Source: Vibrio algicola (GTDB lineage Bacteria; Pseudomonadota; Gammaproteobacteria; Enterobacterales; Vibrionaceae). From it: a stretch of DNA of 64,000 bases. The notes under the pieces are model-generated. The model saw only the letters and a program-made list of their open reading frames with translations, ran no database searches and had not been told where the DNA came from. Where the stretch lies: NCBI RefSeq assembly GCF_009601765.2, contig NZ_CP045700.1:124001-188000 (forward strand). The letters run 5' to 3'. The position numbers were made by a program, and so were the translations under genes. Positions 3,555 to 3,789 of this stretch are shown here, piece after piece; position 1 is the first letter of the stretch; each line of letters opens with the position of its first letter.

Positions 3555-3690
3555 ACAAGACAGTAATGGGACAGGCGTCAGGCCCTTCTTGAGTCACAAA
3601 TATTGGCGAGGCAACCCTCACCAAATAATGAAACTAAGCAATCGACAGATCCAAGGAAGGACACATAAGGTCGATCGCTGTGTGGGTCAG
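3555..3690 (-). ncRNA. Bridge RNA of the IS110 element (guides readable)
   Basis: This is the non-coding end upstream of the transposase, read on the minus strand. In 5' to 3' order it holds: CACAGCGAT (3674-3682), identical to the target flank at 3781-3789; CTTCCTTGGAT (3649-3659), complementary to the other target flank at 2399-2409; AGAAGGGC (3582-3589), identical to the element end at 2410-2417; and ATTACTGT (3560-3567), complementary to the other element end plus core (3775-3782) with one G-T wobble. Target loop first and donor loop second is the known bridge-RNA order. CAAGA and TCTTG bracket the donor guides as a possible stem. The transcript ends are not known; the span covers only the guide loops. 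Confidence 0.8.
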
Positions 3691-3780
3691 ATAGCTCAGA
3701 ACATTATTGGTACCATCTTTCAAGCATGAACCAACTTTCTTAGTTAGTGTATGATGAAATCTAGCCAACACATTATTACT

Positions 3781-3789
3781 ATCGCTGTG
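3781..3789 (+). other. IS110 insertion junction, non-coding side, with bridge-RNA target match
   Basis: The core plus IS3 flank reads ATCGCTGTG. The same nine bases occur at 3674-3682 inside the element, as expected for the left target guide of a bridge RNA. Confidence 0.75.

Follow-up and report, generated by a model that had tools for sequence, protein, structure and literature searches.

An ISEc21-group IS110 element in an IS3 transposase gene of Vibrio algicola, and relatives whose bridge RNAs may carry alternative left target guides

The window analyzed here, a 64,000-nucleotide stretch of Vibrio algicola DNA, contains an IS3-type element interrupted by an IS110 element. Together they form a nested unit (2090..4722, minus strand; 2633 bp), delimited as the stretch common to four near-identical copies in the same genome. 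Based on Pfam matches, the IS3 element consists of orfA (PF01527) and of orfB, which the IS110 element splits into halves matching PF00665/PF13276 and PF13683. The IS110-group element itself (2407..3780, minus strand; 1374 bp) starts with AGTAAT from 3780 and ends with ATC at 2407-2409. Its recombinase gene (2423..3499, minus strand) begins at an ATG at 3499 that follows AAGGAG (the listed ORF extends to a GTG at 3538), leaving a right end of 16 bp (2407-2422). The product matches PF01548 (E 2.3e-19) and PF02371 (E 1.6e-14), both above the cut-off, and judged by these Pfam domains it is a DEDD/RuvC recombinase with a C-terminal Transposase_20 domain, as in the IS110 family. The bridge RNA (3540-3713) lies upstream of the gene on the minus strand, which is the layout of the IS110 group, and not downstream as in IS1111. 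The orfB frame of the IS3 element crosses the junction into the bridge RNA region, creating a 219-aa hybrid frame (window 3634-4293).

The transposase shares 70% identity with one from E. coli that carries an ISEc21-family annotation, and in the protein tree the window falls within one supported group of 8 rows that includes annotated ISEc21. A sequence search at E 0.001 returned a single relative of solved structure, the ISCro4 transposase (9t56; E 5.6e-6). DNA of the element was matched in 11 of 227 genomes of the genus, in several as fragments only, so the element is uncommon. We are nearly certain that the IS110 element of the window is a new ISEc21-group member. IS4321/IS5075, considered as possible plasmid kin of the 66% matches, were dropped as candidates; several of the listed matches are annotated as ISEc21 family.

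Flank translation places the left target half CACAGCGAT (3781..3789, minus strand) on the His-Ser-Asp codons of the IS3 transposase and the right target half CAAGGAAG (2399..2406, minus strand) on Gln-Gly-Ser; according to the main-text description of ISEc21 (PMC11187229), this Asp is the second D of the DDE triad. IS3 relatives without the element were matched in 63 of 148 genomes searched of the same genus. An empty-site motif was present in 25 of the 29 relatives read, always as GAY^CARGG (caret, insertion point) with a single C, and was not found in the other four, one of which (L079) is itself interrupted. Because all 25 motif-bearing empty sites have this form, we place the insertion point directly after the Asp codon, and the element runs from AGT to RTC. 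The original prediction had proposed an AT core dinucleotide, and this was not borne out: the empty sites lack a second AT(C), left flanks end in GAT or GAC, and element ends are ATC or GTC, the two varying independently. Of the two AT dinucleotides, the left one is part of the target Asp codon, whereas the right one belongs to the end of the element itself. Accordingly, of the stretch described there as flank with core (2399-2409), positions 2399-2406 stand as flank, but the ATC at 2407-2409 belongs to the element, and the window flanks are corrected to CACAGCGAT on the left and CAAGGAAG on the right. No dinucleotide is common to target and element ends at GAY^C and RTC/AGT, and target bases are not duplicated at any of the insertions compared, as is usual for the IS110 family. 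We take the CT core to be a trait of IS621 and its near kin rather than a definition of the family; the main text on ISEc21 (PMC11187229) names no core.

The structured part of the bridge RNA (3540..3713, minus strand), defined from a 21-sequence alignment (A1), comprises a target loop followed by a donor loop. In the target loop, the left guide CACAGCGAT (3674..3682) equals the flank at 3781-3789 and lies on the single arm of the window copy, and the right guide CTTCCTTG (3652..3659) is the complement of the flank CAAGGAAG at 2399-2406 and is followed by a GAT tail (3649..3651). In the donor loop, the left guide AGAAGGGC (3582..3589) equals the element end at 2410-2417, and the right guide ATTACT (3562..3567) is the complement of the element start AGTAAT (3775-3780) and is followed by a GTC tail (3559..3561) that is invariant in A1; all six segments are on the minus strand. 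All four guide segments thus occupy the places, and after recomputation the order, that had been claimed for them on a minus-strand RNA. At 46 of 50 loci, the right target guide ends in a tail that is an exact complement of the final three bases of the element (32 GAC/GTC, 13 GAT/ATC, 1 GAA/TTC; the other 4 not exactly), in a count in which related loci were not thinned and two tails were entered by hand. The tails are therefore better read as putative handshake guides, the target-loop tail (GAT in the window) for the donor (element end ATC) and the donor-loop GTC for the target GAY.

Folding the 21 aligned relatives with RNAalifold gave two stems with internal loops that carry the guides, and 17 of 35 pairs show changes on both sides (alignment A1). 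In this fold 93.6% of cells are paired, compared with 85.5% after shuffling (0/500 as high) and 33-43% when slid, the structure having been derived from the same 21 sequences on which it was scored. The covariation in these relatives supports the proposed IS110 bridge RNA and its division into a target loop and a donor loop. Rfam at gathering thresholds returned no bridge RNA match in the window, only a tRNA. As a chance control, 63,000 contiguous minus-strand positions of the window were tested against the 174-nt RNA: the left 9-mer occurred in it for 219 positions, the complement of the right 8-mer for 202, and both in order for 0 of 63,000.

The agreement between guides and flanks extends to relatives. 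Single-arm elements at 28 loci reduce to 21 distinct guide/flank pairs, all of which (21/21) agree at positions 1, 2, 4, 5, 7, and 8 of the left 9-mer (the key positions), including the variable and informative positions 4 and 5, for which shuffling predicts 9.0 and 11.7 agreements. Positions 6 and 9, the third codon positions of Ser and Asp, agree in 5 and 11 of the 21 pairs (5.0 and 10.5 expected), and position 3 is intermediate (17/21 vs. 11.0 expected). On the right side, 50 loci yield 42 distinct pairs with a mean of 5.38 compared to 4.72 when permuted. For both sides own flanks fit better than permuted ones (0/20,000 as good), in line with the prediction that the guides account for the insertion site, although the permutations leave relatedness between elements in place and the counts are not strict probabilities. 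Because agreement holds at codon positions 1 and 2 but falls to chance at the third positions of Ser and Asp, the guide tracks the protein motif, and synonymous variation at these two third positions is tolerated. Relatives are inserted in the HSD^QG catalytic motif of different IS3 transposases; such same-motif insertions, recognized from the flank sequence or its translation, include ones in Vibrio, Idiomarina, Marinobacter, Klebsiella, and Methylorubrum. The window, judged by flank translation and empty sites, has the ISEc21-group target HSD^(Q/R)G of IS3-family transposases, and the right guide of L106 suits a right flank starting with AGG (Arg).

Several loci were scored separately from the flank counts (L047-L049, L172-L174). 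Three of these (L047, L172, L174) match their guide at 6/6 key positions, and the poorer fits are the decayed fragments L048 (4/6) and L049 (5/6) and the viral-contig locus L173 (5/6). The original prediction had named other copies with the same guide segments in unrelated targets as evidence against itself; at least two relatives do lie off the IS3 motif, yet both match their guides, L107 at 6/6 key positions through its adjacent guide and L173 at 5/6. A further locus, L010 (2501-3600), carries the guide TACGGCGAT and is inserted at the YGD^KGY motif of a transposase that belongs to a different DDE family (PF13612, E 2.7e-30). Its flank and guide suggest a natural change of target family, making natural retargeting visible.

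The flank counts exclude L014, L019, and L026 (left flank unreadable), L048 (junction AGC), L047 and L049 (donor-loop pattern not found), L015 and L028 (no arms seen), L131, L147, L154, and L155 (left end truncated or missing), the more distant L133, L138, and L161-L169, and the near-duplicates L045, L137, L157, L158, and L171. Arms or flanks were entered by hand for L010, L012, L014, L016, L114, L115, L117, and L118, both arms and flanks for L170 and L175-L177, the right guide for L118 and L148, and the right flank for six loci. A class-wide scan of 369 genomes with the donor-loop pattern matched three, the own genome and two with one mismatch, in which no such left end was seen by eye. Phage records gave one distant match, and viral contigs gave one distant relative and three single-arm ISEc21-like loci, with no match to a second pattern.

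In many relatives the left half of the target loop (TGACYC-N-guide9-NGAC) occurs twice ahead of a single right guide, and in L017 and L018 it occurs three times. The window copy has one arm only, starting 91 nt from the element start (3689 vs. 3780). Single arms generally begin about 79-98 nt from the element start, the first of the three arms in L017/L018 at 78 nt, and the first arm of two-arm elements at 33-38 nt. Combinations of arms include CACAGCGAT + CACTCTGAT (L109, L110), CACAGCGAT + CACTCCGAT (L014), AACACYGAT + CACTCCGAT (L098, L112, L116, L146, L148, L149, L175, L177), and CATAGCGAT + CATACCGAC (L008). As read from these guides, the combined arms are alternatives beyond the reach of third-position tolerance (Ser AGY/TCN; HSD vs. 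NTD). Left flanks were readable for 29 multi-arm insertions (24 distinct). With agreement at 6/6 key positions, the 24 match the adjacent arm only in 16 cases, the upstream arm only in 7, both in none, and neither in one (L151). Among the upstream-only cases, the adjacent arm misses two or three key positions in L017, L018, L116, L146, and L175; L119 and L176 are weak, with the adjacent arm off at one key position and a possible wobble in L119. Transposase halves are present on both flanks of L116 and L146 (Pfam) and, by translation, of L175 and L176. L017 and L018 have a nearly identical three-arm left end, yet occupy the sites CACTCCGAT and CATAGCGAT; the flanks of L018 are not recognizable as IS3 (the left without a Pfam match, the right frame 9 residues), and L018 is weak evidence that the arm is used. 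L148 and L177 add no new pattern to the count, and the right flank of L148 is not IS3-like. Among distinct cases, 6 of the 12 that have an NTD arm show NTD-type flanks, vs. 0 of the 33 that lack one (Fisher p 1.1e-4).

Upstream 5′ strands can pair with the shared 3′ strand, with a mean z of -3.36 (adjacent arms, -3.77) over 19 of 20 multi-arm elements tried (L017 being outside this set), and in each of 10,000 permutations the swapped upstream pairs were less stable than the own pairs. The weakest upstream values (L118, -0.28; L113, -1.28; L114, -1.75) all belong to elements with decayed upstream guides, and the adjacent arm is weak in L148 (-1.34), L149 (-1.52), and L150 (+0.57). The minimum-energy fold uses the upstream arm in four of five full left ends, the elements having been chosen by hand; that of L116 does without the upstream arm, though its flank matches the upstream guide. 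Across 13 alphaproteobacterial left ends, conservation is 0.88 for the upstream and 0.86 for the adjacent guide block, 0.78 and 0.62 for the respective 5′ strands, and 0.71 for the linker. The protein tree was built after a motif filter that gave a protein from 42 of 66 sequences (L017, L018, L114, L115, and L150 are among those without), of which 34 were kept once near-duplicates were dropped by hand. Because two-arm members are scattered in this tree and include the deepest ingroup branch (Herbidospora), we infer that the second arm is ancestral and was repeatedly lost, including in the clade of the window and ISEc21. We also infer that alternative left guides serve variants (Ser AGY/TCN, NTD) of one protein motif. 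In genome G675, L149 and L151 share the same two-arm left end and nearly the same right flank, with left flanks CATTCCGAC and AATTCCGAC, a pattern that suggests rearrangement between copies, in which one locus may be rearranged.

These observations can be weighed against readings in which some or all of the guide matches play no role. One of these, that the matches are due to chance or to a captured scrap of IS3 with no guiding role, we regard as highly improbable: a single conserved motif makes up nearly all targets, so that every member should show some match, and mean scores against the flanks of other elements are indeed high (right 4.70 of 8, left 6.49 of 9), yet the own flank is tracked at variable guide positions, the guide segments sit in two loops of a covarying RNA, and the ISEc21 RNA was shown to be necessary for target choice (main text of PMC11187229). 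A narrower doubt concerns the upstream left arms, which could be inert, either as duplication relics or as a guide-like 5′ stem-loop, with only the arm adjacent to the right guide at work. The majority of adjacent-only insertions (16/24) would fit this idea, as would the single-position misses in two of the seven upstream-only cases (L119, L176), the decay of upstream arms in L113, L114, L115, and L118, and the lack of an upstream arm in the window and ISEc21 lineages. However, the five remaining upstream-only cases miss their adjacent arm by two or three positions in a group whose single-arm elements matched their own arm 21/21, NTD-type flanks are confined to elements with an NTD arm (6/12 vs. 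0/33), the upstream guide block is conserved like the adjacent one in 13 elements, and upstream 5′ strands pair with the shared 3′ strand and win four of the five chosen minimum-energy folds; we therefore hold inert arms to be unlikely. Our preferred reading, which we consider probable, is that in the ISEc21 group (alpha-, beta-, and some gammaproteobacteria, and actinobacteria) two to three interchangeable left arms compete for one shared right-arm 3′ strand and address alternative spellings of the motif, in a layout that looks ancestral and was lost in the lineage of the window and ISEc21. Its probability is slightly lowered by the two weak upstream-only cases.

A last alternative concerns where the insertion in the window was made. 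The four own-genome copies of the IS3::IS110 unit (2633 bp, one 2632) differ at only 4 columns, and their treatment as independent insertions was rejected, all being one nested unit. This uniformity suggests that the insertion took place outside this genome and that the unit arrived ready-made and multiplied as a unit, as does the result that no empty copy of this IS3 was found: a pattern scan of the own genome with up to 2 mismatches gave 0 sites, and of 12 matches to this IS3, the four at 99% are the interrupted copies and the other eight reach only 33-38%. Against it, none of the four copies has a 3-4 bp direct repeat at its outer IS3 ends. We lean moderately towards ready-made arrival, which is compatible with guided insertion as the best explanation of the site and concerns its timing. 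The four units would have multiplied despite their broken transposase.

The limits of the element, the positions of its guides, their agreement with the flanks, and the RNA fold (by covariation) can be read from DNA comparison, and the following steps would complete the proposed mechanism. In an excised circle, the abutted ends would form a promoter, predicted from TTGACT and TAATAA spaced by 16 bp, which would transcribe the RNA from the left end of the element. The RNA would presumably be bound by the recombinase, and strand exchange would proceed with handshake pairing. The window element is another RNA-guided element that interrupts an IS3 transposase at an active-site codon, and the ISEc21 group exemplifies how a natural RNA guide can track a protein motif. 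If the multi-arm reading is true, bridge RNAs carry several selectable left guides and the target loop is a modular two-part switch, which would bear on guide evolution and on the connection that has been proposed with tandem-guide systems. In the literature covered, which included the main texts of PMC11187229 and PMC11208160, no IS110 RNA was found described as having more than one left guide; as far as searched, the multi-arm relatives are likely a new variant.

Compared to known systems, target and mechanism are not new, because ISEc21 was shown experimentally to use RNA from the same region and to target the same codons, those around the second D of DDE in IS3-family transposases (Siddiquee et al. 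2024, main text of PMC11187229); the kind of element is already known, and the window adds one member. As described in the same text, ISEc21 resembles the window element in its upstream non-coding region, its precise insertion without duplication, and an RNA guide in which the bottom-strand match precedes the top-strand match. The two differ in sequence (transposases 70% identical, nucleotide identity about 66%), in the right guide (CAAGG in the window vs. CAGGG in annotated ISEc21, L093), and in the handshake tail (GAT for the end ATC vs. GAC for GTC). ISMch6, identified by record annotation (L110, on a Methylorubrum plasmid), belongs to the same group and occupies the same motif but has two left arms, CACAGCGAT upstream and CACTCTGAT adjacent; for it, the main text of PMC11187229 describes a modified target together with changes at three guide bases, and no mention of a second arm was found in that main text. 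The IS621 bridge RNA has the same LTG-RTG-LDG-RDG order, with target and donor loops and handshake guides, according to the main accounts (Durrant 2024, PMC11208160; Hiraizumi 2024, PMC11208158), and the tails in the window fit the handshake guides described there (PMC11208158). In IS621, target and donor share a CT core (PMC11208160, PMC11208158), whereas the window junctions have no visible shared dinucleotide. Finally, the multi-arm relatives resemble TIGR-Tas in carrying several guides in tandem, and the main description of TIGR-Tas (PMC12045711) presents Nop-type guide RNAs that its authors relate to IS110. TIGR arrays, however, repeat whole dual-guide units (PMC12045711), whereas in the multi-arm IS110 relatives only the left half of the target loop is present more than once, and its copies share a single right half.
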